Shown piece by piece: positions 6,499-28,075 of a stretch of DNA of 64,000 nt (positions within the stretch are counted from its first letter, which is position 1; every line of letters starts with the position of its first letter). The position numbers and the translations under genes are program-made. Origin of the DNA: Tepidisphaeraceae bacterium (GTDB taxonomy: Bacteria > Planctomycetota > Phycisphaerae > Tepidisphaerales > Tepidisphaeraceae). The notes under the pieces are model-generated. The model did no database searches. It saw only the letters and a list, made by a program, of their open reading frames with translations, and had not been told where the DNA came from. The stretch spans positions 1 to 64,000 of the forward strand of contig DASYHQ010000008.1 of assembly GCA_035998445.1 (NCBI GenBank), in the 5' to 3' direction.

Positions 6499-6518
6499 CT
6501 AATACGACGCTATGCCCG
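6484..6518. terminator. Perfect 13-bp inverted repeat after the 6544 gene
   Basis: Arms CGGGCATAGCGTC and GACGCTATGCCCG with a 9-base loop lie 26 bases after the end of the minus-strand gene at 6544-7179. No T-run follows, so it could be a terminator-like stabilising hairpin or an operator for the next gene. Confidence 0.5.
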
Positions 6519-6543
6519 ATTTGGAACGCGGAACTCGATCGAC

Positions 6544-7179: not shown

Positions 7180-7269
7180 AAGTCCACTCCTTGGACTATG
7201 TCCCATAAGCACCAAAAGTCGATTGTAGGCCTTGTCTAAATACAACGCCACGGCCAAAAGACAAGTGCA

Positions 7270-7572
7270 TTATGCCCCAGTGCGGGAGGAACGGTAATCG
7301 ACGCGACCGTTAGTTTCCACTGCTTTGCGCCCTTTTTCGTTTACAAAATCGATGAAATTGACGGTCGCCTGGTGCACCTTTTCGCTGGTGTAAACGTTCT
7401 GTTCGGCTGGAATACGGTCAACTGAGTCGTCCGGGGCAGGGCTCAATTCGACAACGTCGACACCGCGCGCATGCTGCGTCGGAACGGCAGAAGTTGGCGC
7501 AACGGAAGAGGACGGGCTCGCCGCGGTGGCTATGAGAGTCGGTCGTAGGGGACTCGGTCCATCAACGGACAT
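7270..7572 (-). CDS. Small hypothetical protein
   Basis: 100 residues, start preceded by AAAGGGAAG at suitable spacing. The N-terminal half is Pro/Ser/Ala-rich and probably disordered; VDVVELSPAPDDSVDRI recalls the helix-capping segment of FlgM-type proteins, but no flagellar gene is near. The C-terminal half (VHQATVNFIDFVNEKG) is helical. It probably shares a transcript with the gene at 6544-7179. Confidence 0.5.
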   Translation of the reverse strand: MSVDGPSPLRPTLIATAASPSSSVAPTSAVPTQHARGVDVVELSPAPDDSVDRIPAEQNVYTSEKVHQATVNFIDFVNEKGRKAVETNGRVDYRSSRTGA

Positions 7573-7762
7573 CGTCGCACTTCCCTTTGCGAGCCGGAGG
7601 TTGTTAAGCGTAGACTAATACACGCATTGCTTAGGTTACGTGTAAGACGATTCGTATGTCAAATCACGAATTGCGGACACCATCTATAGGGTAGGGTATC
7701 GCGCACCGACTAAACACACGCGGTTTCTTCGACGTCAACATAGCGTCCAAACCGGAGAAGTA

Positions 7763-7793
7763 AATATAGGCTTATAACCTATAAGCCTATATT
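7763..7793. promoter_or_regulatory. Palindromic operator upstream of the HigA-like gene
   Basis: Perfect 13-bp arms AATATAGGCTTAT and ATAAGCCTATATT flank the loop AACCT, ending 34 bases before the start of the HTH gene at 7828. Its AT-rich content stands out in this GC-rich region. Antitoxin-type HTH proteins usually repress their own promoter through such a palindrome. Confidence 0.75.
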
Positions 7794-7827
7794 GACTCCG
7801 CAGAGGCAGGCGGTATGATTCCTTCCA

Positions 7828-8955
7828 ATGGCTGTAAGTCCTGGCGAAAAGATCAGAGAAGAACTGGACCGGCGAGGGTGGACCCAAGGCGACCTGGCCC
7901 ACATCCTCAACCGGCCGCTGCCCACCATCAACGAGATCATCGGCGGCAAGCGCGCGGTGATGCCTGAAACGGCTATCGCGTTGGAAAGTGCCTTCGGCAC
8001 CCCCGCGTCCGAGTGGATGCGGCTTGAGGCGGAATATCGGCTCTCGCTGACCAGCCGGGACGACTCGAACGCAGAGGCCGTCGCCCGTCGGGTGCGCCTC
8101 TACGACCTCGCGCCCGTCAAGGAGCTCGAGCGCCGTGGCTGGATCCAACCGGCCAAGGACGCATCGGCCCTCGAGAAGGAACTGTGTCGGTTCTTCGGGG
8201 TCACCAACCTCGACAGCGAGCCGCAGATCAACGTCGCTACCCGCCGGTCTGAACCGACCGAACACCTCTCGCCACCGCAGCGCGCTTGGTGCTTTCGCGC
8301 AAAGCAGATGGCGCGGGTGGTCCACGCGGAGAAATTCAAGCGCGAGTTGCTGCCTCAGTGCGAGGCGAGGTTGCGCGAGCTGGCCGCGTTCCCTGACGAG
8401 GCACGCCAGGCGCCAACGGTGCTCGCCGGCTTCGGCATACGCTTCGTTGTGATCGAACCGCTGAGCGCCAGCAAGATGGATGGCGCCGCCCTCTGGCTTT
8501 CGTCCCACGAGCCGGTCATCGCCATGTCGGTGAGGCACGATCGGATCGACGCGTTCTGGTTCACGCTCTTTCACGAGTTCGCGCACATCAAGAACGGCGA
8601 CGCGTCGGTCGACGTCGACCTGGTCGGCGAGAGCGCCTACCCGTCGGAGGCCAAACCGGACATCGAGCGGCTGGCGGACGCCGAGGCGTCGCGCATCCTC
8701 GTGCCGGCGGACAAGCTCCAATCCTTCATCACGCGCGTGGGGCCGCTTTACTCGAAGGTCCGCATCAACCAGTTCGCGCACCGAATGAAGATTCACCCTG
8801 GCATCATCGTGGGGCAGCTGCAGCACCGCGGCGAGGTCAAGTGGACCTCCAATCGCGAGATGCTGACGAAGGTCCGCTCGATCGTTCTCTCGACTGCCCT
8901 GACCGACGGGTGGGGCAAGTCCATTTCTGTCGACCTCTCCCAGGCGGGGAATTAA
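7828..8955 (+). CDS. HigA-type HTH regulator fused to ImmA/IrrE metallopeptidase
   Basis: 375 residues. Residues 1-90 form a HigA-like XRE HTH (GEKIREELDRRGWTQGDLAH, then PTINEIIGGKRAVMPETAIALESAFGT). The C-terminal half is an ImmA/IrrE-type zinc peptidase: FWFTLFHEFAHI supplies HExxH at about residue 250, with a downstream Glu in ERLADAEASRILVP as probable third ligand. Family members cleave or sense regulators, or act as antitoxins. No HigB toxin precedes it, so this is either an orphan or the sensor of the three-gene operon that continues at 8966 and 9557. Confidence 0.88.
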   Translation: MAVSPGEKIREELDRRGWTQGDLAHILNRPLPTINEIIGGKRAVMPETAIALESAFGTPASEWMRLEAEYRLSLTSRDDSNAEAVARRVRLYDLAPVKELERRGWIQPAKDASALEKELCRFFGVTNLDSEPQINVATRRSEPTEHLSPPQRAWCFRAKQMARVVHAEKFKRELLPQCEARLRELAAFPDEARQAPTVLAGFGIRFVVIEPLSASKMDGAALWLSSHEPVIAMSVRHDRIDAFWFTLFHEFAHIKNGDASVDVDLVGESAYPSEAKPDIERLADAEASRILVPADKLQSFITRVGPLYSKVRINQFAHRMKIHPGIIVGQLQHRGEVKWTSNREMLTKVRSIVLSTALTDGWGKSISVDLSQAGN

Positions 8956-8965
8956 GGTAAACGTT

Positions 8966-9493
8966 ATGCGTCAGAACTTCAAACGCACGGCCAGCGAGCA
9001 GCTGCAGGACATCCTCAACGACTACCTCAAGCGTCATCCCGATGTGCGCGAATGGGAGATGGATGACGTCGCAGCTTGGGCGCTTCGGGAAGGTCGCTGG
9101 CACCCGCCGACGCGCAGCGCGATTCGCATGTGCGCTAGCGAACTCGCTAAGGCGGCCCGAGAGGAATACACGACCGATCCGCAGGGGCGTCGGGTCCGCG
9201 TCAAGCATGCGCGGCGCGAGATGACGATGGTGGATGGCAAGCCGAAGCAGATGGTCTTCTGGGAAGACGCGCGCAACGCCTCTCCAGACCATATGCGCGT
9301 TTCGCTCCAGCAGCGACGCACGAGCATCCTGTTGGACAATGCTCAGCTCAAGCGCGACACCGACAGTTACAACGAGAACAACCCGCACGGCGCTCATATC
9401 CAGATGAGCTTCGACTACACGGAAGACTTGCTCGAACTGGAGGCGCCAGAGGATTACCCGGGCATGGAGGGTGATGACGGCGATGACGAATAG
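8966..9493 (+). CDS. Hypothetical protein with acidic C-terminus
   Basis: 175 residues, starting 10 bases after the HigA/IrrE gene, so surely the same operon. The N-terminus (RTASEQLQDILNDYLKRHPD, then EMDDVAAWALREGRW) looks like a helical DNA- or protein-binding domain; the middle includes HARREMTMVDGKPKQMVFWE, and the end is very acidic (EGDDGDDE). I do not recognise the family. Its position between a regulator-protease and a DUF6173 gene suggests that it is a substrate or effector partner. Confidence 0.75.
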   Translation: MRQNFKRTASEQLQDILNDYLKRHPDVREWEMDDVAAWALREGRWHPPTRSAIRMCASELAKAAREEYTTDPQGRRVRVKHARREMTMVDGKPKQMVFWEDARNASPDHMRVSLQQRRTSILLDNAQLKRDTDSYNENNPHGAHIQMSFDYTEDLLELEAPEDYPGMEGDDGDDE

Positions 9494-9556
9494 GAGGTGC
9501 CGGCCGCTCCTCGGCGTCAATGCACCAAAGGTGCCTTCCGTGACAAAGGACGAACG

Positions 9557-10006
9557 ATGACAGATGAGAATGACGATAAGTTTAGCGGTCCAACGTTCCG
9601 GCTCCCGGAGCTCAACTTCGGCGGGATACTCCCACATCCCGTCGAAATCCCGGCGGATCTACTGCGGGGGCCAAAGGACTACAACCTCGCCAGCGAGTTC
9701 CACTCCCGATTGATCAAGTGGATAAATGACTTCGACCAGAGCCTCGACAATGCTCACGAGGTCGGCGTGAAGCTTGTCAGCTTTGGGCAATCTGTCATCT
9801 TCCATCTGAAGGACATCGGCTACTGGAATCCGTCGTTAATATCGTTCAGCGGCGAAACCGAGGGCGGCGAGCCCGTCGAGCTGATCCAGCACGTAAGTCA
9901 GATCAGCATTTTGCTTATGAAGCTTCCCAGAAAGAACCCCGAAGCGCCGAAGCAACCGATCGGGTTTAGCTCTGAAGATGAGCGCGACGGGCAACCGCGC
10001 GACTAG
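9557..10006 (+). CDS. DUF6173-family protein
   Basis: 149 residues. The start at MTDENDD follows AAAGGA at reasonable spacing. The segment NAHEVGVKLVSFGQSVIFHL, then GYWNPSLISFSGETEGG and PVELIQHVSQISILLMKLPR fits, from memory, the DUF6173 family, which is usually 100-170 residues and of unknown function. It is the last gene of the operon starting at 7828. No membrane segment and no catalytic motif are evident. Confidence 0.75.
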   Translation: MTDENDDKFSGPTFRLPELNFGGILPHPVEIPADLLRGPKDYNLASEFHSRLIKWINDFDQSLDNAHEVGVKLVSFGQSVIFHLKDIGYWNPSLISFSGETEGGEPVELIQHVSQISILLMKLPRKNPEAPKQPIGFSSEDERDGQPRD

Positions 10007-10038
10007 GTCAGACGTCGCTGCGTCTCCTCACCACTAAT

Positions 10039-10213
10039 TCAGCGTGACGCACGACGCGCTCGATAGGCCCGCATCTTCATCGCACCCCGCGTGAGCCCCA
10101 CCCAATCGGCCGCCTCCCGATGCGTCCAGCCGGCACGCTGCATGCCTAGGGCGTATGCCTGCGTCGTGGTCTGCCCCCTTCGCTTTAGCGGCGGTCACTT
10201 CATGGTCGCACAT
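10039..10213 (-). pseudogene. Short HTH protein, frameshifted remnant
   Basis: From the ATG at 10213 the frame reads MCDHEVTAAKAKG and then loses sense at a run of five G; removing one G joins it to QTTTQAYALGMQRAGWTHRE and on through EAADWVGLTRGAMKMRAYRA to a stop at 10039. The joined product (about 57 residues) is a sigma-factor-region-4-like helix-turn-helix. Only 34 codons (10039-10143) are readable from an internal ATG without the repair. It sits between the DUF6173 gene and a broken ATPase gene. Confidence 0.4.
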
Positions 10214-10379
10214 ACTCACCGTGGCGGCGGCAACGTTTCCGCATCCCATCACGCGACACCCCGAGCGTCGCCCGCTGGCGAGCCCGCTTGAGCCGGCAAC
10301 GCATGGCTGCCACTGTGATGCCCAGCTGGTCGACAAAGTCCCGCCCGGACTACATAGGAAATATTCTCTTGTGACCTGC

Positions 10380-12194
10380 TTACCCGAGCCCCACTGCATA
10401 GAACAACGCCGTCGGCGTCACTTCCTCTTTCTTCAGCTCGACCAGCCCCATGCTGCTGAGCCGGTATAGCGGGTTTCGGAACCCGCTCGATTGCGGGTTC
10501 TGTACCCGGCCGCGGCTGCCAGTGAATCACGCGTCGTCGCCCCGCCGATCTTGTGCAGTTCCTCGAAGATCTTCTTCGTCGGCCCGTCCATGACCTTCGC
10601 CAACGCCTCGTGATATCCCTTCAGCGTCGTCGATTTCTCCGGCCAGTTGGCCCACGTCGCACCCTCGTCGGTGAGCGCGTCGTCCTTCACCAAGCCGGCG
10701 GCTTGGCAGGCGTACAGGGGATTGCGAAACCACTGCTGCGGATGTTCGAATAGCCGGCGATCGGCGCGATCATCTCGCGGCTGGGCTTGGCGACGCCGAT
10801 CGAGTGCCACCACGCGTACGAGTCCAGAATCTTCGACATCGGCGCGTCGATGGTCCGGCGCTCGCCCTCTCCCGACGTACCGGGAGAGGGTCGCGAGGTG
10901 GAAACCGTTTCCACGCGCGGCCGCGCTGGGGCAGGTGGAGCCACCCGACCCACCCCAGCGGCAACCGGCTGAATCGTGGCGGTTCTGACGTCACTCGAGC
11001 GGATGTTTCGGGCGACCGTCAAAATGCTGTGGATCTCATCCCGCTCCAGCTTCAGAGCCCCGTGCAGGCTTGGCACCAGATCACGGGCCTTATCACCGAC
11101 GGTCGCTAGACGTTCATTGGATCGCGTGAGCAACTTCTCCAGCCGCTCAATTTGCTTGTCGGTGATGATCGGCTTCTCGACCGTCTTCGTCTCGACCTTC
11201 CCCACGGGCGCCGGCGCGTTGCGCAACTTCGTCAGCTCGGCCTTTGCCTCGGCCAGTTCGCGACGCAGCGGCACCGGGTCGTTGGCCTTGGCCTGCTCGA
11301 TCACGCTGGCCAGCTTCTCCTTCACCACGTCGAGGTCGACGTCGGCCCATCCGGCGTTGCTGACCTTCCGCTGCAGCTGCGGCGGCGCGAACCAATCGAA
11401 CGCCGTGAACATCGGGAAGGCGATGCGCTTCGGCCTGAAGTTGACTTCCGGCGACCACACGTAAGCCTCGCCGCGCGGCAGTCCGGCCAGCGCGCCGAGC
11501 ACCTGCTTGCCCATCTCAGCGTCGCCCGCCCCATCGATCCAATCCTTGACCGCCCCACGGTCGGCCGCGTGGATCACCCGCATGGCGACGAGTGTCTCGC
11601 AGCTCGTCAGCGTGTCGTTGTGGACCTTCTGCGGCCGTTGTGACGCGATCAGGCAGACGAGTCCGAGCCCGCGGCCCTCGCTCAGCAGGCGGTTCGACCA
11701 GTGCAGCGACTCGCCGGCCTGGGGGCTCAGCACCTTGCCCTTGGGCGCGAAGTTGTGGAACTCGTCACCGACGACGTACAGCTCGCCCGCGTTCTTCGCG
11801 AAGAGCATCTCGGCGAAGTCGATCCAGAACTGCTGCATCTTCGCCGTCGACCAGCCGCGGAAGCCGTTGACGGCCGGGCGGTTGCCGGTCGCGATCAGCC
11901 CGGCGACGTGCTTGCCCGACTGCGGATTGATGGGCACGTCGTGGGCCTTGGGCTCCTTGAAGTCGCCGAACATGATGACGGGGAAGCCTGCCGCCCTACC
12001 GTCGCCCGACGACTTCAAACCCCACCAATCGCTTTCGGGTCGATGGTGACGACGCGCTTGTCCCGCGCCAGCAGGTGCTCGACGATGTGGCGCAGGGCCG
12101 ACGATTTGCCGGCGCCGGTCTTTTCCAGCACGACCAGGTGCTGATCGAGCACCTTCTCGGGCACGCAAAGTTTCACGGCGGTCGTGTTGCTCAT
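10380..12194 (-). pseudogene. HerA/DUF87-like ATPase, broken by three single-base deletions
   Basis: The start MSNTTAVKLCVPEK (12194) has GGAG five bases upstream. Walker A is VLEKTGAGKSSALRH; the frame then breaks at about 12031, where IDPK-G-DWWGLKSS would be restored by one extra base. The second piece carries the Walker B region (ELYVVGDEFHNFA) and SLIASQRPQ-type sensor CLIASQRPQKV. A second break at about 10725 and a third near 10500 each interrupt a repeated motif, SSGFRNPLYACQAAGLV and SSGFRNPLYRLSSMGLV, i.e. tandem winged-helix-like units. Repaired length is about 605 residues. The family are hexameric DNA-translocating ATPases. Either the gene is decaying or the assembly has base errors. 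Confidence 0.75.
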
Positions 12195-12290
12195 TTGCTC
12201 CGTCCCTTTCTCTTCGGCAGCACGCTGCTGGCCATAGTGTGTTTCCCTCATTCGTTTGGCTTTGCTGATTACTGGCGTATAGTTCGAGTG

Positions 12291-12345
12291 CCGGCGGTGA
12301 TCCCCGTAGAAGGTTCCCCCCCTCCTTCTACACCCGCCGGTTTTT
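12291..12345 (+). terminator. Nested hairpin followed by T-run
   Basis: Outer arms CCGGCGGTG and CACCCGCCGG (one bulged C) enclose an inner stem GTAGAAGG/CCTTCTAC, followed directly by TTTTT. It has the form of a plus-strand intrinsic terminator or attenuator, but no plus-strand gene ends just before it; it lies upstream of the minus-strand ATPase pseudogene and of the small gene at 12480. Confidence 0.5.
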
Positions 12346-12479
12346 CATGCGCACTCCGAACGAGCTTTTCCACGTCGATCTCCTGTTCATCGAACGCCAA
12401 ACGCGCCCGTCCGTTCAGTCCTGAACCAACTTCGCCGGCCGTCGTTGGCGCCGCCGATCCCGCTCCTTACCGTGCGCCC

Positions 12480-12773
12480 ATGGACCGCACGCCCCTTGAT
12501 CTCCAGCAGTGCCACCACGTCTGGCAGCGGACGCGCGAGATGGTCGCCTACATGAGCCGCCTGCGTTCGGCATTGGCGTCTCGTGGGCATGACCGCCGGC
12601 ACACGTACTACCGGATGGTCGACGACGCCTGGCGTGCGGCGGTCGCCGTGCAGACGGCGTCGTTGATCTGCGGGGGTGAGTACGGCTTCTCCGTCCCCCT
12701 CGGCACGCTGGCGACCGGGGACATACCACCCGTGTCGCACGACGTGCGGAACTGGCTTGGCGACGGGATTTGA
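12480..12773 (+). CDS. Small hypothetical protein
   Basis: 97 residues from MDRTPLDLQQCHH. The product has a protein-like helical pattern (VWQRTREMVAYMSRLRSALA, then YYRMVDDAWRAAVAVQTASL) and an orderly end. The frame is open upstream to 12075, but that part is antisense to the ATPase gene. I see no strong ribosome-binding site. A 25-codon frame starting MRTPNELFHVDLLF (about 12348) precedes it in another frame. No family is recognised. Confidence 0.45.
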   Translation: MDRTPLDLQQCHHVWQRTREMVAYMSRLRSALASRGHDRRHTYYRMVDDAWRAAVAVQTASLICGGEYGFSVPLGTLATGDIPPVSHDVRNWLGDGI

Positions 12774-12791
12774 GGGCGTGTCGAACATAGT

Positions 12792-12980
12792 TTAGTGCTC
12801 TTTCGTAGGAAGAACCGCCGTTGCCTGTATGAACGCGTCACGTGCCGTCGCCGGGTCCTCACCGGTGCGGATCCTGTCCAGCAGTCGATACGCTTCCTTT
12901 CGGAGCAGGCACGTCGCCGGCTCGCGAGCTAAGGCAGCCTAGTGGATCCTCTGCAGTTCTGCGGGCGTCAGGTCAGCCAT
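12792..12980 (-). pseudogene. Small gene overlapping DUF1643, interrupted by an in-frame TAG
   Basis: Translation from ATG at 12980 gives MADLTPAELQRIH, then TAG at 12939-12941, then in the same frame AALAREPATCLLRKEAYRLL and DRIRTGEDPATARDAFIQAT to TAA at 12792. The whole 62-codon frame reads as one natural helical protein, with the DUF1643 stop overlapping its start (translational coupling). The TAG is either a nonsense mutation (for example from CAG or GAG) or a read-through site. Confidence 0.45.
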
Positions 12981-13440
12981 CGTTAATCCTTAGTTCGTCC
13001 GTCCTCGGCACGGTCGAGCCAGCCACGTACAGCGGGTGCTTTGGGTAGCCGTCTTTCGTCACCGCCAGCGCTTCTACCATTCGATCTGACAGCAGCGTCA
13101 GCACCGCCCGATCACGCTGCAGGTGTGCACCGTGATAGCCCCAGGCAACGATGACCCGCCGCCCTGCTGTCGCGATGCCGATCGTCTCGTTGTACTTCGG
13201 CCCCACGGGATCCGCGCACTGGTAGAGCATCGCTGGGTCGGTCGATCGCAGCGCGAAAAGATTGGCGACGCAGATGCCGCCGGCGACCCACGAAGGCGAG
13301 AACCCCATGCAGCGGCGGATCGGCGGGTCGTCAACCTCGGCGTCCGCTGTCGACGGGTTGAGCATGATCCAGCAGGGCGTCAGCTTCTTCGGGTTTCACA
13401 CTCGGTTGAGCTTGAGCATAAAGCAGTACCGCCCGCACAT
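12973..13440 (-). pseudogene. DUF1643-family gene with an in-frame TGA near its start
   Basis: The main part (MLNPSTADAEVDDPPIRRCM, NLFALRSTDP, VAWGYHGAH) matches DUF1643, a family of about 150-170 residues found with restriction and mobile elements. The family's N-terminus is also here in the same frame (ATG at 13440, MCGRYCFMLKLNRV) but a TGA at 13396-13398 separates it from NPKKLTPCWIMLNPSTADA. A TGG-to-TGA change would explain it. The intact downstream frame from the internal ATG at 13365 (130 residues) could still be translated. Confidence 0.7.
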
Positions 13441-13489
13441 CGTGAGGTCGACAGTCGATTGCTGTCGGGCATGAGCATCGGATCAGACA

Positions 13490-14806
13490 TTATCCTAGTT
13501 CAGCCACCACCGCCGCGCTTTTGTTTCCGTCGGCTTGGGCGTACTCCAGCGTCTGCGCGAGCGTCCGGTGCCCCAACAATAGGCGCGCGGCTTCCAAGCC
13601 CTTCGTCCGCCGCAGGTCTGTCGCGTACCGATGGCGCAACTGGTGCGGGTGCCAGAACGCCTCCTTCGGCAGCGCCCCGGCTCGGTTCGCCGCCCGCATC
13701 GCGTACCGCAACGCTCGGTGGTAGCTGCGCGGACCGTACCTGCGAATCACTTCCGTGGTCGACATAGTCCTGGTGAGGTTATGGCTTCGCAGCTGCCGCC
13801 GCTCCTCGATCGCCCGCTGCGGCGAGAACAGGTAGGCTTCACGACACGCACCATCAAGCAACGCACCCAGGATCTCCTGCACGCGTGGCCCCAGCAGCAC
13901 CGCCCGGTCGTGCCCCCGGTACGCGGTCTTGTGCGACGCCGGCCGGTAAACCCACACCGCACCGCTCACGTCGATGTCGCAGGACCGCATGACACACAGC
14001 TCGCCGGAGCGCATGCCGGTCAACCGCTGCACCTGCACCATCGCCGCCAGCGTCGGCGGCAGGTACGGCAGCACCGCGTCCACGTGCTCGTGGGGCACCG
14101 GCCGCACCGGCGGCGTCTCCCGCGCCCCCGACCGCCCCCTGCGCAGCGGCTCGACCGCCGCCAGCGCCGCGATCACCTCCGCCGGCACCATCTCCTGGGC
14201 CACCGCCCAGCGGAACAGCCGCTTGACGCACGTCACGCGCTGGTTCACCACGTTGCGGCACAGGTTTGCCCGCACCATTGCCCCCTGCAGCGCCCGCAGG
14301 GCCAACGGCCCGAACGCAGCCGCCGGCGTTGAACCGTACAACGCGACGAGGCACTTCGCAGCCGCCTCGGCCGGCCCGATCCCGCTGCTGGGCCGCCCCG
14401 CCGGATCGAGGTAGTACGTGCGTGCCCACCGCAGGTACGCGGCGGCCACCTGAGCGACATCCGGTGCTGGCTTCGCCGTGTCGCTCGACGCCTGCGGCGG
14501 CTCCCCCGTCGCCAGCCAATGGGCGATCGTCCGGCGGTACTTCTCGTAGCTGGCGTCGGTGCCGGCCCGGCCAAGGTAGACCATTCGCCCGGCCAGACGC
14601 ACGTACCCCACCCCTTTCGCCTTGTGTACGCGGTAGGCGGGCAGCGCGACCTGACGCTCGTGGCCAAGGGCTTCGCCGCTCCGCACCTGCACTGAACTGG
14701 CATCGGCGACTCGCGGCCAGCCGCGCCGGTCCGTGCCGCGCCCGTGAGGGACGTCGGTCGTGGTGGAGATCATTGTCGTCGCCTTACGGCCGTGCAAGGT
14801 GCTCAT
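13490..14806 (-). CDS. Tyrosine recombinase (phage-type integrase)
   Basis: 438 residues. The core-binding domain (about 130-220) precedes a catalytic domain with LTGMRSGELCVM (Arg I), a Lys in ASHKTAYRGH, HPHQLRHRYAT (His-x-x-Arg), LLGHRTLAQTLEYAQ (second His and the nucleophilic Tyr). All catalytic residues are present. The gene starts 31 bases after the Gam-like gene and belongs to the minus-strand operon from 17535. It should mobilise the element that encodes it; its att site is not identified. Confidence 0.93.
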   Translation of the reverse strand: MSTLHGRKATTMISTTTDVPHGRGTDRRGWPRVADASSVQVRSGEALGHERQVALPAYRVHKAKGVGYVRLAGRMVYLGRAGTDASYEKYRRTIAHWLATGEPPQASSDTAKPAPDVAQVAAAYLRWARTYYLDPAGRPSSGIGPAEAAAKCLVALYGSTPAAAFGPLALRALQGAMVRANLCRNVVNQRVTCVKRLFRWAVAQEMVPAEVIAALAAVEPLRRGRSGARETPPVRPVPHEHVDAVLPYLPPTLAAMVQVQRLTGMRSGELCVMRSCDIDVSGAVWVYRPASHKTAYRGHDRAVLLGPRVQEILGALLDGACREAYLFSPQRAIEERRQLRSHNLTRTMSTTEVIRRYGPRSYHRALRYAMRAANRAGALPKEAFWHPHQLRHRYATDLRRTKGLEAARLLLGHRTLAQTLEYAQADGNKSAAVVAELG

Positions 14807-14837
14807 GTATCCTCTGTCCTGCTCTTCGGTGCCTCGT

Positions 14838-15494
14838 TCACTTCACGTACAGGCGGTCCTCGGCCGACGAGACCGTCACCCCGTCCGGCACCTCGCCCAG
14901 CTCGGCGACGTGGCGGTTGAGCGCCTCGCGCATCACCTGCTTGCGGACCCGCGCGTCCTCCTGCCGCGCCCGCTGCCACCGCGCCAGCTCCGCGGCCACG
15001 TCCCCCTCGGCGTCGACCGTCACCCGCAACGCCTCGCGCAGGTGTCGCTCGCACCAAGCCACCAAGGACGGCTCGTCGATCACCTCCAGCCGTCCCGGCT
15101 GCCGCCGCAGCCCGACCGTGCCGGCGGGCAACGGGACCGACCGGGCGCGACCGCCCCGCCGCCCCAGTTCGTCGCGGAGCCAGCCCTCCAGCTCCGCCCC
15201 GAACCGCCGCAGGAGCCACTGCTCGTCCCGCTCGGCCCGCCGCAGCTCCCGCTCGGCCCAGTCGCGGGCGCGGGCGGCGTAGGCCCGGCACTCGACGATC
15301 TTCCGCACGACCCAGGAGGCCGTCGCCTCGTCGACGACCCGGAACGCGTCGTCGACGATGGCCGCGACACCCGGGTCCGCGTCGTCGTCATCCCCACCGC
15401 GATGGAGCCGGTCCTCGCGGTCGGCCGCCTGTTCAACGGGCAGCCGCGTGGCCGGTCGCCGGCGACGCTGGATTATCTTGATCACCTTGCTCAT
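14838..15494 (-). CDS. Gam-like host-nuclease-inhibitor family protein
   Basis: 218 residues; start chosen at MSKVIKIIQRRRR because AAGGAG stands about seven bases upstream and the ATG overlaps the preceding stop (ATGA). After an acidic, disordered N-terminus, the centre (RDWAERELRRAERDEQWLLR) is a long helix, then SVPLPAGTVGLRRQPGRLEV and VIDEPSLVAWCERHLREALR form the strand-strand-helix part typical of Mu Gam (Pfam Gam), including the VGxR turn. Gam binds double-strand ends and protects them from RecBCD. Next to a recombinase and RadA-like ATPase this points to recombination-based replication or transfer. Confidence 0.72.
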   Translation of the reverse strand: MSKVIKIIQRRRRPATRLPVEQAADREDRLHRGGDDDDADPGVAAIVDDAFRVVDEATASWVVRKIVECRAYAARARDWAERELRRAERDEQWLLRRFGAELEGWLRDELGRRGGRARSVPLPAGTVGLRRQPGRLEVIDEPSLVAWCERHLREALRVTVDAEGDVAAELARWQRARQEDARVRKQVMREALNRHVAELGEVPDGVTVSSAEDRLYVK

Positions 15495-15748
15495 ATGGAT
15501 CTCCTTAATGACTCGATGCACGTGAGGGTCATCAGGACGGCCTCGCGGTGCAGGATCAACACCGTCGCGTGCGACGGGCACGCGGCGTCCAACGCGACGT
15601 ACAGTTCCGTCGACCGCTCCATTAGGTAACTCGCCAGCTCCGGCTCGGTCCGCTCGAGTTGCCGCAGCGCCCGACGCGTCCCCAGCCGTTTTACGTGCTG
15701 CTCGGCCTCCCGAAGGGCGGCAGGACGAACGGATCGGTTCGGTAACAT
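15491..15748 (-). CDS. Small helical hypothetical protein
   Basis: 85 residues from MLPNRSVRP, with GGTGGAG upstream. Its stop overlaps the start of the Gam-like gene by the ATGA motif, so the two are translationally coupled. The sequence (LREAEQHVKRLGTRRALRQL, then ERSTELYVALDAACPSHATV) is helical and basic. No family is recognised; the position suggests an accessory role to the Gam-like protein. Confidence 0.6.
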   Translation of the reverse strand: MLPNRSVRPAALREAEQHVKRLGTRRALRQLERTEPELASYLMERSTELYVALDAACPSHATVLILHREAVLMTLTCIESLRRSI

Positions 15749-15786
15749 GGCAAGCTCCACCTCGAAAGATCTTCCCCGTCTCCGCG

Positions 15787-16176
15787 TCAAGTGTTCGACG
15801 TTCCCTGCGCCCCACCGTCCTCGGACGCATCCTCACGACGATCGCCGGGCTCGCTCGCCTCGTCCTTCAGAAGCGACGGGTCGAGCCGGGCGAGCAGCGC
15901 GCCAAGCTCCGTGCCCCGCCAGAGGCGGTAGTGGGCGAGCCGGTAGGACTCCAGCGCCAGCAGCACCGCGTCCCACACCGCCCGGTAGGCCCGGTCGTGC
16001 GCCTCCAGCGGCAGGTCCTCCAGGTCGCCCAGCGCGTTGTTGGCGTACGCGCCGACGGCCAGCGCCAGGTCGCCGTCGCGCTGGAACATCGCCCGCATCG
16101 CCGCGACGTGGTCGGTCCCCGCCAGCCGTTCCCGCGCCGCCTCGATCGTCGCCTCCGTGATCAACCCGTCCGTCAT
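15787..16176 (-). CDS. Small acidic hypothetical protein
   Basis: 129 residues from MTDGLITEATIEAARERL, preceded by AAAGGTG; an ATG at 16191 is an alternative. The protein is helical (DHVAAMRAMFQRDGDLALAV, YRAVWDAVLLALESYRLAHY) with an acidic, Gly-rich tail that is probably disordered. It sits 42 bases after the RadA-like gene and 38 bases before the 85-residue gene in the same operon. No family is recognised. Confidence 0.6.
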   Translation of the reverse strand: MTDGLITEATIEAARERLAGTDHVAAMRAMFQRDGDLALAVGAYANNALGDLEDLPLEAHDRAYRAVWDAVLLALESYRLAHYRLWRGTELGALLARLDPSLLKDEASEPGDRREDASEDGGAQGTSNT

Positions 16177-16218
16177 CGCAACACCTTTCATCTTCGTTCC
16201 ATCTCTCCGGCCCGGCCC

Positions 16219-17535
16219 TTAGCAGTTCCACGCCAGCGCGTTCAGGTCCAGGGCCGGCCATAACCGCGCCATGGCCTCGGCCAGCGTGCCGACGCCCCAG
16301 ATCGGGCAGGAGCAGTTCGACGGCAATTGCTTCTTCGAGGCGGCCGGGACGAGCAGGAACAGCTCGCTCAGCTCATCCGTGTGGAGGGCGGTTCCCATCG
16401 AGCGGAGGACCGCGGGCGTGAACCCGCGCACGTGGCCGCTCAGGTCCAGCTCCCCCACCGCCGCCATGGATGGATCGACCGCGCGGCCCAGGCACGCCCC
16501 GGCGATCGCCAGGCACAGCGGCAACTGGAGCAGCGATCGCGCCGCTGCGCCGGCCGGTGCCCCGCGCTGGTCGGGCCAGCGGCAGGTGACGGTGAGGTCG
16601 AGGTCCGGCACGATCGCATCGAACCCCGGCAACCGCCGGAGGATCTCCGCCGCCATCCGCACCTCAGCCGCTGCGATGCCTCGGCAAGCGAGGATGCGGC
16701 CGCCGCCCGCGGTACCAACCGCCGGCAACGCGGCCGCCACCTGAAGTTCGACGGGACCGACGCCCGGGACAAACGACTTGGCCGTCGCGATCTGCGACGT
16801 CGCGTGGGGCGCGGCGACCAAACGGGTCGTGACCGGATCGACGATCAGATTGGTTGGGCGAAGGACTGCCGGGCCGAAACGGTTCTTCGGGACGGTCAGC
16901 GTGCGCCGGCCCCCGCGGCGGTCCAGGTGCAGGACGACGTCGACCGCGTGCTCGAGCGTCCGCGGGCCGCGGATCGCGTTCTGCTTGGTGACGTGGCCGA
17001 CCAGCAACGTGGCAATGCCGGCCGACTGCAAAAGCCGGGCGGCGTCCAGGGCCGCCCGGCAGGCCCGCGCGTCCGATCCGCCGGCGCCAGTTGTGCCTTG
17101 AATGCTGTCGAGCACGACGAGCGCCACGCCGGTGTGCGCGGCATCGGCGGCGATCACGTGCCGCGCGACGTACGCCGGCAGATCGGCCGGATCATCGGGG
17201 GCCGCGAGCAGCGCGAGGTTCCGAAGCGAGGCCTTCGCGTCGGCCTTCGGGCCGCCCGACACCATGCGTTCGGCACGGTCGCGTACCCGCGAGACGTGCT
17301 CTTCGCTGAGGAGGACGAGGGATTTTCGGCCCCGGGCACCCAGGTCCAATGCGGATTGCAGCGCCAAGCCGGATTTGCGGCTACCAGGCGGTCCGACAAG
17401 AAGGGAGATACCAACCCACCTATCCAGCCGAGGGAATGACCATCGCAACCGCTGGTCATTAGACACCGCGTCGGCTAGCGGCATGCCGGAGTTGGAAACG
17501 TTGTTTACGGCGGGACGAGCAACCATGCGTCCCAT
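16219..17535 (-). CDS. RadA/Sms-like recombination ATPase, lacking the zinc finger
   Basis: About 438 residues (start at MGRMVARP; earlier or slightly later starts are possible). The RecA-type core has a Walker A variant GPPGSRKS, Walker B VALVVLDSIQG, LLVGHVTKQNAIRGPRTLEH and the RadA signature PKNRFGPA. The C-terminal part (about 290-438) resembles the Lon-protease-like domain of RadA (GGRILACRGIAAAEVRMAAE, ELDLSGHVRGF). The N-terminal CxxC zinc finger of canonical RadA is absent. Bacterial RadA drives branch migration in D-loops. The Gly-to-Arg change in Walker A could impair ATP binding. Confidence 0.8.
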   Translation of the reverse strand: MGRMVARPAVNNVSNSGMPLADAVSNDQRLRWSFPRLDRWVGISLLVGPPGSRKSGLALQSALDLGARGRKSLVLLSEEHVSRVRDRAERMVSGGPKADAKASLRNLALLAAPDDPADLPAYVARHVIAADAAHTGVALVVLDSIQGTTGAGGSDARACRAALDAARLLQSAGIATLLVGHVTKQNAIRGPRTLEHAVDVVLHLDRRGGRRTLTVPKNRFGPAVLRPTNLIVDPVTTRLVAAPHATSQIATAKSFVPGVGPVELQVAAALPAVGTAGGGRILACRGIAAAEVRMAAEILRRLPGFDAIVPDLDLTVTCRWPDQRGAPAGAAARSLLQLPLCLAIAGACLGRAVDPSMAAVGELDLSGHVRGFTPAVLRSMGTALHTDELSELFLLVPAASKKQLPSNCSCPIWGVGTLAEAMARLWPALDLNALAWNC

Positions 17536-17554
17536 AATAATATTATATACGAGG

Positions 17555-17575
17555 ATGTCAAGTTTAAAACTTAAC
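17555..17575. promoter_or_regulatory. Palindrome in the divergent promoter region
   Basis: A 21-bp near-perfect palindrome, TGTCAAGTTT-A-AAACTTAACA, with one mismatch, lies between the divergent RadA-like and ribbon-helix-helix genes in an AT-rich stretch; a second short palindrome ATAATATTAT is at 17536-17545. It is the likely operator of the regulator at 17625, controlling both directions. Confidence 0.6.
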
Positions 17576-17624
17576 ATAGCCGATGTCGCTTGCTCGGAGG
17601 GAAATTTGACCGTCTAATCCTGCT

Positions 17625-17909
17625 GTGCCGAGACGCAAGCAAACCATTAGCTTTTCAATTGATCCGGTTCTGGCCGATCGCTTTCGGGAAGCTACCAGTG
17701 CTTATTTTGGAAAACTGGGCCTATGCTTTTCAGCGTGCATGCTGATGTGGTTAGAGGCGGATCCGGAGGTTCAAGCGAAGTACCTAAAGCGGATTTTCGG
17801 TGCCGAAGTCGATGAAGAGCTGCTTGAATTAATCGAGCAGGCCAAGGCCGAGCAACTGAAGCGGATCAAGGCCCGCGAAGACGGCTCGAAGCCAAAACGC
17901 GGCTCCTGA
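17625..17909 (+). CDS. Ribbon-helix-helix-type DNA-binding regulator
   Basis: 94 residues from a GTG. The start KQTISFSIDPVLADRFREA is a typical ribbon strand followed by helix 1, and KLGLCFSACMLMWLEADPEV would supply helix 2; a basic tail ends the protein. There is no good ribosome-binding site at the GTG; GGAGGG lies about 25 bases upstream. Divergent from the RadA-like operon across a palindromic region, so probably its regulator. Codon use is less GC-rich than in the neighbours. Confidence 0.65.
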   Translation: MPRRKQTISFSIDPVLADRFREATSAYFGKLGLCFSACMLMWLEADPEVQAKYLKRIFGAEVDEELLELIEQAKAEQLKRIKAREDGSKPKRGS

Positions 17910-17912
17910 GCC

Positions 17913-18075
17913 CTAAAGGCTCTGTACCGTACACGGTCGCGCACCCCCCTTCGCTCCCGCGGACACCAGCCCCCGCCCCCTTCGAAACACCCACGCTCGC
18001 CCTCTCGTGCAATGGCGGCGCTGCACACAGCCACGCGTGACCCCCTTCGGCGGAAGACGGTGGTCGCGCATGGCA
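17913..18075. repeat. Segment homologous, inverted, to 2283-2461
   Basis: Contains CTGTACCGTACACGGTCGC, GACCCCCTTCGG and GTGGTCGCGCAT in the same order and spacing as the reverse strand of 2283-2461. On the minus strand a 52-codon frame (18071 to 17913) begins MRDHRLPPKGVT, similar to MRDHGCRPKGVV of the other copy, but the two frames diverge afterwards. Confidence 0.5.
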
Positions 18076-18472: not shown

Positions 18473-19963
18473 ATGAATTCGGAAGCATGTCAACGATTGA
18501 TCAAGCTCCGTCGAAATCACCCGGCGTGGCTATTGTTGGCTTCTCACAATGGCCCACTGATTCTCGTCAGCCTGCAGTCACTCATCGATGCCCTTCCCAA
18601 CGGAATTGATTTCGAAGCCGCAGTCGAGCACCTCGGTGGTTTGTTCGCCGACAACTCGAATGACGACAACTTTGACATCGGAGACGATCATGCCATGGCC
18701 GCCAGGCGGGAGTTGCGGCAGTGGCTGAAGCGCGGGTTGATTGTCGAACGCGAAGGCCAGCTGCTAGCCACCGACGCCTTGCAGCGGTCGTTCTACTTCC
18801 TGAACTCGTTGCAAGATCAGCCGATGACCTCGACCGCCTCGCGCCTGGCAACGGTGCAGCGAGAAATCGAGAATCTGGAGGCTCAGTTGAGCCACAGCCA
18901 GAGCAGTCGCGAAGAGTCGCTGAAGCAGCGCATCGCGACGATGCAGGATGAACTCGCAGCCGTGCAGTCCGGTGACTTTGAAGTGCTGACTGGCCCACAG
19001 GCGGCAGAAGGCATCCGCGAAGTGTATCAACTGGCGATCAGTCTGCGGGCCGATTTCCGCCGGGTGGAAGACTCGTATCGTGAAGCAGACAAAGCATTAA
19101 GGCAGCGAGTCATCAGCGAAAAGCGACACCGCGGGGAAATCGTCGATGATCTTCTGAACGGACACGACGCACTGATCAAAACTGGGGAAGGCCAGGTGTT
19201 CGAGGGCTTCTATCAGCAGCTGGTGAAGTCTGTCGAACTCGAGCAAATGAAACAGCGTTTACGCTTGATTCTGGAAAACGAGAATACGGATACAGCACTG
19301 GAACGGACACAGAAGGCCGACCTGCGATCGCTGGTGCCACGCCTGGTGCAGGAATCGCAGCGTGTCATTCAGGCCAGGGCTCGAAGCGAGCGTGATGTGC
19401 GCAGTTTCCTTAAATCGGGACTCGCGGACGAAGAGATTCGCGTAGGTGCGGTCCTGCAGGAATTGTTTCAAGTGGCGCTACGTGTGGACTGGCAGTCCGC
19501 CGGTGTGCGGCGCGCACCCGGGCCACTTCCACCCGTTGCCATCGCGGTGTCGAATCTACCGTTGGTGGAGAGACTGCTGTTCAAAGAAGTGAGTGACGGC
19601 GAATCCGACGATCTCGATCTGACCATTTCCCCTGCTGATCCGGCACAAATGGACGAGGAGTTCTGGCGAGCCTATCGCGCGTTGAATCGCACGCAGCTGT
19701 TTGACGCGACCATCGAAAAACTTCGGATAAGCGCCCAGCCGCTGACCATCGGCGCACTGGCAGCGACGCTTCCACCAACTCACGATCTGGAAACACTGGC
19801 GTACTGGCTGGCAATGGCCCGCGAAGCGGGTATCGCCGTCGAAAACAACACTGAGGTCATTCACCTGTTCGATGAAGGTGAAGGCTGGACGCGGTTCTTT
19901 GTACCGACGGTGGAACTGACCTTCGTAGCGGTGCATAAGCTGGCGCCGGGGAGCCTCGAATGA
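18473..19963 (+). CDS. jetA: Wadjet protein JetA (DUF3375)
   Basis: 496 residues. The N-terminus (LIKLRRNHPAWLLLASHNGP, then LILVSLQSL) and the segment MAARRELRQWLKRGLIVERE are characteristic of DUF3375, the MukF-like kleisin subunit of type I Wadjet. Helical middle (about 110-330) with coiled-coil pattern, winged-helix-like C-terminus (LRISAQPLTIGALAATLPPT). By established knowledge JetABC form an SMC complex that extrudes plasmid DNA, and JetD cleaves it. First gene of the operon; its stop overlaps the start of jetB by ATGA. GC is lower than in the flanking genes. Confidence 0.93.
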   Translation: MNSEACQRLIKLRRNHPAWLLLASHNGPLILVSLQSLIDALPNGIDFEAAVEHLGGLFADNSNDDNFDIGDDHAMAARRELRQWLKRGLIVEREGQLLATDALQRSFYFLNSLQDQPMTSTASRLATVQREIENLEAQLSHSQSSREESLKQRIATMQDELAAVQSGDFEVLTGPQAAEGIREVYQLAISLRADFRRVEDSYREADKALRQRVISEKRHRGEIVDDLLNGHDALIKTGEGQVFEGFYQQLVKSVELEQMKQRLRLILENENTDTALERTQKADLRSLVPRLVQESQRVIQARARSERDVRSFLKSGLADEEIRVGAVLQELFQVALRVDWQSAGVRRAPGPLPPVAIAVSNLPLVERLLFKEVSDGESDDLDLTISPADPAQMDEEFWRAYRALNRTQLFDATIEKLRISAQPLTIGALAATLPPTHDLETLAYWLAMAREAGIAVENNTEVIHLFDEGEGWTRFFVPTVELTFVAVHKLAPGSLE

Positions 19964-20673
19964 GTGATGAAGCCGACCCTAGCCCATTAGCGACAAGCGA
20001 GCAGGTTGAGGGACCCAAATTTGAATCCGAAGCGTACTCTGCAGCGAAGTCTGTCGCGGCGGATGCAGTGCCGTCGGAGGTAAAAGCCGTCACCCAGGAG
20101 TTGCTCCGGTATGGGTATATTGAGGAAGCAGCCAATCCCAAATTGTTTCAGACAGCTACGATCCACGAACGGGATGTCCGTCAAGCGTTGATGCCATTGG
20201 ATCTGGCCGTTCGGCTCGATGCGCATCGCGGCATCGCGCTGCTGGTGGTCGCGACCGCCGTGTCTGAATCTTCAGGAAGTGTTGAGGCATGGTCGCATCC
20301 CCTGGTAAGGCGACAGCGCCTTACGCTCGAACAATCGTTGCTTGTGGCGATTTTGCGACAGACGTTCTTGATTCACGAGCAGGAGTCGGGCGTCGGGCAT
20401 TCCGCGGCGAAGATTGCCGTCGATGACGTATCATCTCAATTTCTGACCTATTTTGACGATTCGGGAAGCGATGCCCGCAACCGAAGTCGGCTGTTGAATC
20501 TACTGGACCAGTTGAAGGTTCATGGCGTCGTTTCCGAGGTAGACAGCAATATGGAATTGACGATTCGTCCCATCATCGCGCATCTCGCGAACGCCGAGCC
20601 GCTTTCATCATTGCTTCGAGTGCTGAAAGAAAAGGCCAGCAAACCCGAGCAGCCAGAACCGGAGCACGGATGA
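19960..20673 (+). CDS. jetB: Wadjet protein JetB (DUF4194)
   Basis: 237 residues. Segments AVTQELLRYGYIEEAANPKL, VRLDAHRGIALLVV and QRLTLEQSLLVAILRQTFLI fit DUF4194, the MukE/KITE-type winged-helix partner of JetA and JetC. The C-terminal half (LLNLLDQLKVHGVV, then SNMELTIRPIIAHL) is a winged helix. ATGA overlaps on both sides couple it to jetA and jetC. Confidence 0.92.
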   Translation: MSDEADPSPLATSEQVEGPKFESEAYSAAKSVAADAVPSEVKAVTQELLRYGYIEEAANPKLFQTATIHERDVRQALMPLDLAVRLDAHRGIALLVVATAVSESSGSVEAWSHPLVRRQRLTLEQSLLVAILRQTFLIHEQESGVGHSAAKIAVDDVSSQFLTYFDDSGSDARNRSRLLNLLDQLKVHGVVSEVDSNMELTIRPIIAHLANAEPLSSLLRVLKEKASKPEQPEPEHG

Positions 20674-23600
20674 GCAATCAACAGGGGCTATTTGGTGCAG
20701 ATACCGCAAATTCCGACGGCAATGAAAGGCAACCGTCGTTTCGATTGTACCAGCTGGAAGTCTTCAACTGGGGACCGTTCAGGGGTTTGCACCGAGCCGA
20801 GTTTGACAATGGTGGCACCGCAATCATCGGTCCCACGGGCAGCGGGAAGACTACGTTGGTTGACGCGTTGATGACACTCCTTGTTGTATCACCCCGATAC
20901 AACCTCGCATCGACCGGTGGACATGAAAGTGACCGCACCCTGATCTCGTACGTCCGCGGCGTGTTGGGCGGCGACGGGTCCGACGGGCGCGAGGAAGTCG
21001 CCCGCCCGGGCAAGACGATCACCGGTATATGCGCAACGTATCGATCTGGGCCGGACGTTCTCCGGCTGGCTGCCCTGTTATGGACGGACGGTTCAGGCAA
21101 TACCGCAGAAGATCTCAAGAAGCGGTGGATCTTTTCACAGGCAGACGACCAGACGCTCGATAAGTGGCTGACATTGCTGCATGACGACGGTCTTCGAGAT
21201 CTGATGCGCGCGGGGCGTGAAACGCCAAAGCTCCGGATTTTCGACAACAAGAAAGCGTACCTTGCACACGCCCGCAAATTCTTCGATGTCGGAGAAAACG
21301 CCTTCACGCTGCTTAATCGCGCCGCTGGACTGAAGCAGCTGAATAGCATTGACGAAATCTTTCGAGATTTGGTGCTGGATGATCGAAACGCGTTTGAGCG
21401 CGCGATCGAAGTGGCGGGTGAATTCGACAACCTGGCTGGTATCCACACCGAACTCGAGACAGCCCGACGCCAACGGGATTCATTGCTCCCGATCGCGGAG
21501 GAACATCGAAAGTTGGGAAAGTCGCGTGTCAAACTATCCACTCTCGAATCATTGAAGCGGATCATCCCGGTCTTTTATGCGATTGCAGGCGAGCGACTTT
21601 GGAATCAACTTCTGAAAGAAATCGTCGCGGACACGGAAGATGCCCAATCGCGGCTCGATGTCGCACGAGGAAACGAGAAAGACTGTCAGAGTCGCGTCGA
21701 GACTTTTCGAGAGCGGTACCTCGAGCTTGGCGGCAATGTGATCGCTGAATTGCAGAGGACGATTAAAGCCCAGGAGGAACGCGTCAACGAGCGCAAGAAA
21801 CATGCGAACGATTACCAGCGAATGACAGTAAGCCTCGGGCTCGATCAGGACCTAAGCGAAGCGGCGTTGACGCGGAATCAGGCAGTGCTGGACCTCAAAC
21901 GCCAGAAGTCGGTTCAGCAACGCGATTCGAAGCACACGGAAACGCTGACGGTAATGTCGCAAAAGCTCGTCGCTGAAACCAAAGTCGGCGAGATCGAAGC
22001 GTCTTTACGGAAGGTTCAAGAGCGGCCCGGATCGAATATTCCGCCGCAGTATCAGGATTTCCGCAGCGAACTTTCACGCCAGCTTGGAACGCAGGAGACC
22101 GCTCTTCCCTTCCTGGCCGAACTCATCGAAGTGAGGCCTGAGGAGAATGTGTGGCGCGGCGCGATCGAGCGTGCCATCGGGTCAGAACGGCTACGAGTTC
22201 TCGTACCAGAAGACCGGCTTCAGGCCGCGCTGCACTGGGTTAATAGTCGAGACAATCGGCTACACGTAAGACTTCAACGCTCAAATATCCAAGATCAACC
22301 GCGGGAAGTTTTCCGCGACAGCTTCATTCACAAACTCAACTTTAAGCAGCACCAGCTCCTCCCGACGGCAAAGTTGCTACTGGCGAACCGCGATCTTCAT
22401 TGCGTCGAATCGGCGGATATGCTTCAGAATGTTGAACATGGGTTAACCGTCGAAGGCGCGATATCGGGTAGCCGCGGCAAGTTTGAGAAGCAGGATCAGC
22501 GCCGCCTTAACGAAGGTTGGGCGACCGGATTTAACAATAAAGATCAACTTGAAGCCTTGGCACACGAGTTGGGTTTCTTGCGTAAGCGCGCCGCTCAATT
22601 TGAATGCGAGTCAAAGACGCGTCGTCGCGAACTGGACAACCTGAACGCCCAGCTCGCCATGATCGATCACCTTTTAGCGATTGATTTCAGGACGATCGAT
22701 CTGCCCGGAGCTGAGGCTGAATTAGCTCGATCGAACGAACGACTTACGTCGCTTTTGCATCCGGAATCCGACGCCAGTCAGGCTAAAGCTAGCTATGACT
22801 TGGAGCAGAAAACGTTAGAGGGGATTCAGGGCGACATCAGAAAGTGCGACAGCAACCTCGCAGTTCTAAACCATAAGTACACCGAGGCAAACGCAGAGCG
22901 CGATGGATGTGTAAAGCGTCGAGCTAGCGGACTCACGCTGGAAGAGTCGGCGTTGGCGGAAAAGGAACTGACAATCCGGTCAACCATCGACGCGAAAGCA
23001 CTCAACGATGCAGAACGCGATGCCGCCCGTACGGTGGAGAACGATCTGAATGAACAGCAACGAAGAGTCGCCGAGCATGAAAAGCGACTAGTCCGACTCA
23101 TGGGCGAAGCGAAGCACGTCGATACTGGTGCGCTCGCTGATAGCGGGTCGGATCTGGTTGACGTTAACGACTATCTGGGTCGGCTTCGCGTCCTGAACGA
23201 AGAAGCCTTACCGGAGAAACTTAGTCGGTTCATTGAATACCTGAATCGGTCATCCGACCAAGGTGTCACGCAACTGCTGGCAGGAATTACCGAAGAAGTT
23301 GACGCAATCGAACAGCGCATCGGCGAGCTGAACCAGACGTTGGCTAGAGTCGACTTCCGGTTGGGCCGCTACCTTCAACTGCAGCCCCAGCGCATTAAGC
23401 ATGAACGTCTGCGGTCACTCGAAAACGTCTTACGGGAACTCCGAAGCGCTGCTCTGAAGGACGATGAGGGCAGTAGTCACTATAAGGCGCTTCGCGAAGT
23501 CGTCGCCATTCTTCGTGATGCCGGACAGAACAGCCGCCAGCAAGGTTCCCGGGCGCTTCTGGACCCTAGATATCGTCTGCAATTCTTCGTCGTCGAAGTA

Positions 23601-23975: not shown

Positions 23976-24085
23976 CGACCACTGTGTGTCCCGCGGCGCG
24001 GCGTCTGCCGAATCAGTGTTCCGCCCGTGCATGCTGTTACAGTGCTCAAAGCCAACGGGCTGAACGAAATTATCTCGGCGAAGCG

Positions 24086-28041: not shown

Positions 28042-28075
28042 CGTTCGATCGTTAAGTTATTGACTTACAAGGAAA

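Follow-up and report, generated by a model that had tools for sequence, protein, structure and literature searches.

Previously, the elements named SEs have been reported from Gammaproteobacteria with a four-gene core (IntA, Tfp, IntB and Srap) that includes two tyrosine recombinases. In the parts of the two reports that characterize them, SEs have a median size of 15,688 bp (n = 37), are regarded as non-mobilizable, use few target locations, show, at the circle junction, inverted repeats around a 6-bp spacer and leave no empty site after circularization (PMC9345347, PMC10214605). The present study deals with a stretch of 64,000 nucleotides from a Tepidisphaeraceae bacterium (Planctomycetota; assembly GCA_035998445.1), hereafter the window, which is the start of contig C8 in a draft genome of 5.84 Mb and 64 contigs. 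The window harbors a five-gene operon encoding a RadA-like ATPase, two small proteins, a Mu-Gam-like protein and a tyrosine recombinase. The reading that we favor, and hold to be moderately probable, is that this module belongs to a non-conjugative tyrosine-recombinase integrative element whose sites double as cassette boundaries.

SEs are the closest described class that we found. As far as those descriptions go, the two have in common a tyrosine recombinase, an apparently non-mobilizable nature, short inverted end motifs, cargo, a similar size and few targets. In contrast, our locus combines one recombinase with ribbon-helix-helix (RHH)-like, RadA-like and Gam-like genes, two small proteins and arrays of sites, and the four-gene core with two recombinases is absent from the operon. 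RIT elements, GInts and Tn554-related elements, with the sets RitA-C, GinA-D and TnpA-C in the portion of the report that lists them (PMC10214605), are set apart by their descriptions alone, the module here having one recombinase. A literature search, conducted mostly at listing level, turned up no published description of this gene set.

The module and its copies

All five genes lie on the minus strand of the window, as read from its open reading frames (ORFs): the RadA-like ATPase (16219-17535), a 129-amino-acid (aa) protein (15787-16176), an 85-aa protein (15491-15748), the Mu-Gam-like protein (14838-15494) and the tyrosine recombinase (13490-14806). They are separated, in this order, by a 42-base gap, a 38-base gap, a 4-base ATGA overlap and a 31-base gap. 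The module occurs three times in the host genome, namely in the window, at 51.7-56.4 kb of contig C20 (complete) and at 19.5-23.0 kb of C20, where the recombinase is cut to 132 aa. All three copies have this gene order and the divergent RHH-like gene. Proteins of different copies are about 42-67% identical, and the RHH-like proteins 94% and 67%. Because the cluster recurs twice more at such protein identity, it goes beyond chance. Between the window and one C20 copy (C20 B), the RHH-like protein is 94% identical and 42 of the 88 codons for identical residues differ synonymously; identity is about 53-62% in four other module proteins that were compared. So high an identity with so many synonymous differences suggests that the RHH-like protein is strongly constrained, not that it was copied recently. 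Thus, the preliminary description of this DNA, which had reported five genes packed with gaps under 45 bases or ATGA overlaps from 17535 to 13490 and had taken them for a candidate mobile module, agrees with the ORFs and with a repeated module that looks mobile.

The ATPase matches Pfam AAA_25 (6e-14), and its family profile (A5) matches the PDB structure of RadA, 5lkm (6.7e-32). It retains the KNRFG motif and a Lon-like domain and lacks the N-terminal zinc finger of RadA; against the RadA equivalog TIGR00416 it scores 78.7 bits (3.8e-22), far under the cut-off of 403. Judged from its sequence, with the zinc finger absent and the score under the cut-off, it is a relative of RadA outside the RadA equivalog. 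The window Gam-like protein scores 23.5 bits against Phage_Mu_Gam (6e-05), under the Pfam cut-off of 28.3; its homologue in locus L056 passes that cut-off with 47.7 bits (2.1e-12). Therefore, the earlier assignment of a RadA-like protein without zinc finger holds, and that of Gam kinship is carried by the homologue. The 129-aa protein is predicted to be all-helical (pLDDT 78.8), with no usable match of its fold in the PDB (best E 3.7). The 85-aa protein is perhaps its paralogue at a weak 16-19% identity; neither small protein has a Pfam match.

The recombinase matches Pfam Phage_integrase (3.4e-12). In its structure model (mean pLDDT 70, pTM 0.49, from a four-sequence alignment), a predicted beta-beta-beta-alpha unit precedes the core-binding and catalytic domains, and the best fold matches are lambda Int (1z1b, 1e-11) and Tn1549 Int. 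The modelled fold with its N-terminal arm-like domain thus resembles the Tn916/Tn1549- and lambda-type integrases. VchIntI ranked lower, and the integron integrase profile TIGR02249 gives E 0.003 and 17 bits against a cut-off of 265; by its model score the enzyme is not of the IntI type.

The regulator (17625-17909, plus strand) is divergent to the operon. As it has no Pfam match, and its only PHROG match is a repressor at 0.022, its RHH class rests on the look of the sequence. Thirteen bases of the divergent promoter region, GTCAAGTTTAAAA (17557-17569), are identical in the three copies and constitute a possible operator. The full palindrome AAGTTTAAAACTT, which the preliminary description had regarded as the operator, is present in the window copy alone. 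Likewise, a DUF1643 gene (12973-13365, minus strand; Pfam 6.7e-29) does follow the operon, as described earlier. However, it lies 124 bases past it, is apparently short at its N terminus and was not found at the other two copies, and is therefore treated as cargo.

To place the module among relatives, 26 family genomes (host genome included) and 392 genomes across the phylum were sampled. The whole module is present in one of the 26 family genomes, the host itself, and in none of the other genomes of the phylum sample; the proposal that the gene order is conserved among planctomycetes thus holds within the host genome and was not borne out in the other genomes sampled. The ATPase query matches 25 of the 26 family genomes, among which only G003 (1.2e-57) and G025 (7.8e-57) stand out besides the host; the next-best matches (2e-13) resemble ordinary RadA. 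Five of the 392 phylum genomes hold an ATPase match at E up to 1e-22, and the four besides the host show no match to Gam within the stretches retrieved. Two of their homologues (G260, G109) were not counted as the module for this reason, and two (G405, G320) because the RadA zinc finger is present. Phage-record matches to the ATPase are below 27% identity among the matches listed (15 of 25), two of them annotated as RadA. The Gam query matches six family genomes, host included, and two genomes in the phylum sample, the host and G222, whose match (4.3e-6) was discarded as weak. Scanning contigs from 84,980 species gave five Gam loci, all from Phycisphaerales or Humisphaera. A single-sequence ATPase scan of the same contigs, in which the host genome is possibly not included, confirmed none of 50 candidates.

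Gam is kept at six looser loci, at two of them together with the ATPase, and the recombinase neighbors, where seen, are of the serine or another tyrosine type. The G003 locus comprises tRNA-Ser, a tyrosine recombinase, two small genes, Gam, the ATPase and a large serine recombinase; that of G025 has the ATPase, a small gene, Gam and a large serine recombinase. In G014, Gam accompanies a putative serine recombinase (by eye) close to type I restriction genes. In G022, a small gene and Gam face an RHH-like gene, and G019 has Gam on a 4.9-kb contig. On host contig C52, Gam and a match to the RHH-like protein lie in a region whose first genes are tRNA-Arg and another tyrosine recombinase and which also contains an MmeI-like enzyme. 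The loci of G022 (L069 7036-8056), G014 (L071 6510-7715) and C52 (L020 4939-6740) also have in common, by eye, an XRE-type small gene, which window positions 25985-26240 resemble, and a protein opening with a CxxC-type motif. On host contig C18 (L021 9200-10711, L022), a region that is prophage-like by eye has tRNA-Val beside a recombinase 41% identical to that of the module; another of this kind (39%) follows after about 26 kb.

Sites at the element ends

Beyond the stop of the RHH-like gene, the copies have a palindrome and a 29-bp motif in common, after which similarity ends. Comparing the copies defined this motif as a core-like site of 11 + 7 + 11 bp, CGACCMCBTTC-N7-GACSGTGGTCG, accompanied on its inner side by the palindrome TGTACNGTACA, usually 115-118 bp in. 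The right core begins 129-144 bases beyond the RHH-like stop in all three copies; in the window it lies at 18038-18066 and the right palindrome at 17923-17933 (both plus strand). The pair recurs inverted at window 2313-2458 and at several places of C20. The left core of the window (2313-2341, minus strand) reaches a position weight matrix (PWM) score of 31.1, against a maximum of 18.3 in five shuffles of the window and C20, and the left palindrome (2448-2458, minus strand) is 117 bp inside it. The element therefore appears, from these ends, to extend over about 2313-18066, some 15.8 kb with 11 kb of cargo, and not over 12792-17909 as the unit had been delimited before.

The sites are confined to the host among the family genomes searched. 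The exact palindrome followed by GTGGTC at 118-127 bases occurs five times in the host genome, all at these elements, and neither in the reversed control nor in the 25 other family genomes; the window left end is one base outside this gap range and hence uncounted. The core pattern with up to three mismatches gives 26 strand-hits at 20 places in the host against 3 in the control, no match in 40 shuffled sequences (20 of the window, 20 of C20) and, in the 25 other family genomes, 31 hits in total against 23 in the control, which is background. Five of the 20 places (C17:202241, C41:64948, C50:53530, C61:47980 and C61:95851) are all at three mismatches, level with the chance matches expected from the control, and were left out; palindromes were scored for the 15 sites kept. 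Ten of the 15 have the palindrome 115-118 bp inside (seven exact, two with one mismatch, one with two), and the remaining five match best at 58-130 bp, where one or two bases deviate. All seven exact palindromes within the 282,715 bases examined are at core sites, where base composition predicts 0.10. Among seven sites found by the core alone, a palindrome 12-140 bp inside is present at up to one mismatch in four and at up to two in all seven; the corresponding control values are 1.05% and 2.7%.

The two arms differ at position 9, with T on the inner arm in 14/15 sites and G on the outer arm in 15/15. Since the genome-wide pattern itself demands these bases, the difference is independent of the search only for the eight sites scanned without the inner arm, which have T on that arm throughout (8/8). 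The 7-bp middle is weakly conserved. Two inverted arms around a variable middle are, as far as sequence can tell, the shape of a tyrosine-recombinase core site. If the inner arms were to form an inverted repeat at a circle junction, the predicted spacer would be 7 bp, as against the 6 bp in the SE descriptions. That these sites are a dispersed regulatory or repeat sequence unconnected with movement is very improbable: the host genome does have another dispersed repeat, but the sites have orientation and spacing and are located just past the RHH-like gene in 3/3 copies.

That other repeat adjoins a tRNA remnant. The 3' half of a tRNA-Asn(GTT) starts about 36 bp outside the left core, and a second one is 1.26 kb outside the C20 array, so that a tRNA-Asn 3' half and then the dispersed repeat stand at the border of both islands (window 1991-2277; L023 5581-5871). 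C23 carries tRNA-Asn intact, together with this repeat (L134 9466-9756). The repeat, which forms the 3' side of the remnant, has about a dozen other copies (some 16 places) in the host genome; it is about 250-300 bp long, contains an internal hairpin and often has the same short sequence ahead (C53, C49, C48, C36, C24, C32, C31, C3, C38 and others; L135-L151). These halves, together with the recombinase of the same family beside tRNA-Val on C18, could mean that tRNA-Asn is the real attachment site and that the 29-bp sites and palindromes are accessory or arm-binding sites near the ends of tRNA islands. We find this improbable, since the two arms and variable middle have the shape of a core site, no tRNA 5' half was found at the right flanks beyond short matches, and the C20, C63 and C24 stretches hold no tRNA at the Rfam gathering score. 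Partial tRNAs can escape that search, as did the window's own half, which gave no Rfam tRNA match at E up to 5.

Site arrays, cargo and surroundings

On C20, pattern and PWM place left-type sites at 7131, 12935, 18098, 27052, 28249, 33759, 36644 and 43294 and right-type sites at 23146 and 56553. The eight left-type sites, one of them symmetric, divide blocks of 1-13 kb, some paralogous and reordered. The blocks behind 7131 and 28249 have a 687/796-aa protein in common (44% over 700 aa), and those behind 12935 and 36644 a 428/470-aa protein (71%); a further pair (35%, 40%) is to the right of the 71% block in one array and to its left in the other. The first cargo block of the window, behind 2313 (2447-4283, plus strand), and the C20 block behind 43294 both open with two proteins, one of 278/276 aa (37% over 155 aa) and one with a DnaJ domain (1.3e-17 in the window; 55% over 71 aa by blastp, inside the J domain only). 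At site 18098, position 9 carries the outer-type base in either arm, a state that an unoccupied target might show. Three sites are away from C8 and C20: two on C63, 7 kb apart and read as like-oriented, and one on C24, and genome searches gave no module match on either contig. The start of C20 (L023 1-1285) is 85% identical to a stretch of C23 (L134 14617-15911) near a putative serine recombinase gene, a likeness pointing to segmental duplication.

The same arrays could arise by one-ended capture, in which the right end moves with ever more distant left-like sites and carries flanking DNA along. The nested left sites would then be successive captures and the blocks not cassettes. This scheme is favored by the single right site of each module, by the five left sites lying beyond the second C20 module and by the failure to find a right-type site between those blocks. 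The reordering of paralogous blocks between the two C20 arrays and the two seemingly like-oriented sites of C63, a contig with no module match, speak against it, and we regard it as rather unlikely.

Recognizable cargo is in part defense-like. A PHROG scan covered ten proteins each of the window element and C20. In the window, a helix-turn-helix and M78 protein (7828-8955, plus strand; Pfam HTH_3 and Peptidase_M78) resembles PD-Lambda-2_B (PADLOC 6.5e-39), and a HerA-like ATPase (10687-12251, minus strand; PADLOC HerA 4.9e-13) is apparently split over two frames. The P-loop part of the latter (12018-12251) matches DUF87 (4.2e-07) and, below the cut-off, TrwB_AAD_bind; the protein also matches a PHROG for the terminase large subunit (2.7e-10). 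C20 cargo includes a kinase-HD protein, a type I methyltransferase and a specificity subunit, and C63 cargo UvrD_C (just over the cut-off) and DUF6036 proteins; many cargo proteins are without any match. The element could instead be a degraded prophage or phage satellite with Gam and integrase as leftover phage genes. Both proteins do match PHROGs, as the HerA-like protein does, and a recombinase of the same family borders the prophage-like C18 region. But no Gam relative was confirmed in viral contigs or plasmids, the three copies terminate in the same right-hand sites, and among the 20 scanned proteins no other head-and-packaging PHROG match was obtained, the nearest being a transglycosylase at 0.0018. 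A phage origin is therefore of low probability. The earlier statement that capsid, terminase and conjugation genes are lacking is in keeping with the proteins scanned, a part of the ORFs, which form no structural or conjugation set, with the terminase match of the HerA-like protein as an exception.

With the element placed at about 2313-18066, the neighboring genes lie outside it. A Wadjet type I-like JetABCD set (18473-25231; PADLOC JetA 6.9e-206, JetB 1e-80, JetC 0, JetD 5.6e-156) is situated between the right end and a second tyrosine recombinase of another family (26484-27962) beside tRNA-Arg(acg) (window 26484-28149). That recombinase is 44% identical to the one by tRNA-Arg(tcg) on C52, and its region is considered a separate tRNA island. 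When the far border of this island was sought as a repeat of the tRNA-Arg 3' end, the best score (13) was no better than those of 12 shuffles (9-13), and one of two 17/19 matches led to the tRNA-Asn remnant.

Proposed mechanism and relation to known systems

In the integrative-element reading that we prefer, the recombinase would bind the inverted core sites at both ends, and the recombinase or an accessory protein would bind the palindrome 115-117 bp inside as an arm or accessory site. The ends would join into a circle with a symmetric junction, and insertion would take place at a symmetric target. The RHH-like protein may repress the operon via the divergent promoter. By analogy with their families, which is the sole basis for these helper roles, the Gam-like protein would keep nucleases away from DNA ends or nicked intermediates, and the RadA-like ATPase would power the movement of branches in the recombination intermediate; an end-protected recombination machine, as put forward in the preliminary description, is a plausible inference. 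At like-oriented sites, as on C20 and C63, the recombinase may excise and reinsert the intervening blocks as circles with one site each, by which cargo arrays would grow and reshuffle.

Several observations weigh against this proposal. C20 has one right site per module and several left sites, a layout at odds with plain tandem insertion of complete elements. Among the seven sites found by the core alone, five have no palindrome in the customary 115-118 bp range. A number of sites approach symmetry and can be matched in the opposite orientation too, at the cost of more mismatches, so that some orientations depend on the better score and the palindrome side. The tRNA-Asn 3' half abutting the left border of the window element hints at a different mode of attachment. 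Among the genomes searched, only one has the module in its exact order, and the evidence for the ends derives wholly from that draft. Furthermore, the 7-bp middles differ between the two ends of the window element, which is not expected of a lambda-like integrase. Tn916-type enzymes tolerate heterology in the middle (coupling sequences) of their sites, and a similar tolerance could explain this difference.

Unlike middles at the two ends are thus a likeness to Tn916. In contrast to Tn916/Tn1549 and lambda, the present element has a mostly fixed-place palindrome inside each end and arrays of sites; unlike Tn916/Tn1549, it has no conjugation genes recognized among the scanned proteins, which are part of its ORFs, apart from the P-loop fragment with its DUF87 match. 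Gamma-mobile-trio islands have a tyrosine-recombinase-type module with the proteins GmtX, GmtY and GmtZ. Going by the partial description at hand, they are likewise mobile and rich in defense genes; their module proteins presumably differ from those here. In the described part of integrons and CALIN arrays (PMC11389934), like-oriented sites, some of them away from a recombinase gene, also part exchangeable blocks; here, in contrast, the blocks are multi-gene units of 1-13 kb, and the site is a 29-bp double-arm core with a palindrome. An array of like-oriented sites is indeed present on C20, with recombination there putative. We file the element as a variant of the tyrosine-recombinase integrative elements and as a member of none of the compared classes.

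More tentatively, and with the balance of probability somewhat against it, the arrays might represent a second, non-integron route to bacterial cargo arrays. Here, a lambda-type recombinase with RHH-like, RadA-like and Gam-like helpers would capture and shuffle multi-gene blocks, some for defense, at palindrome-marked double-arm sites, including blocks elsewhere moved in trans. If so, defense-rich planctomycete islands would be assembled without phage, plasmid or integron machinery, and the 29-bp core with a palindrome at about 116 bp would provide a searchable signature for such islands. Site-specific recombination would also be tied to a branch-migration ATPase and to a protein that shields DNA from nucleases, and the presence of Gam beside serine recombinases hints that such helper genes may be exchangeable between recombinase types.

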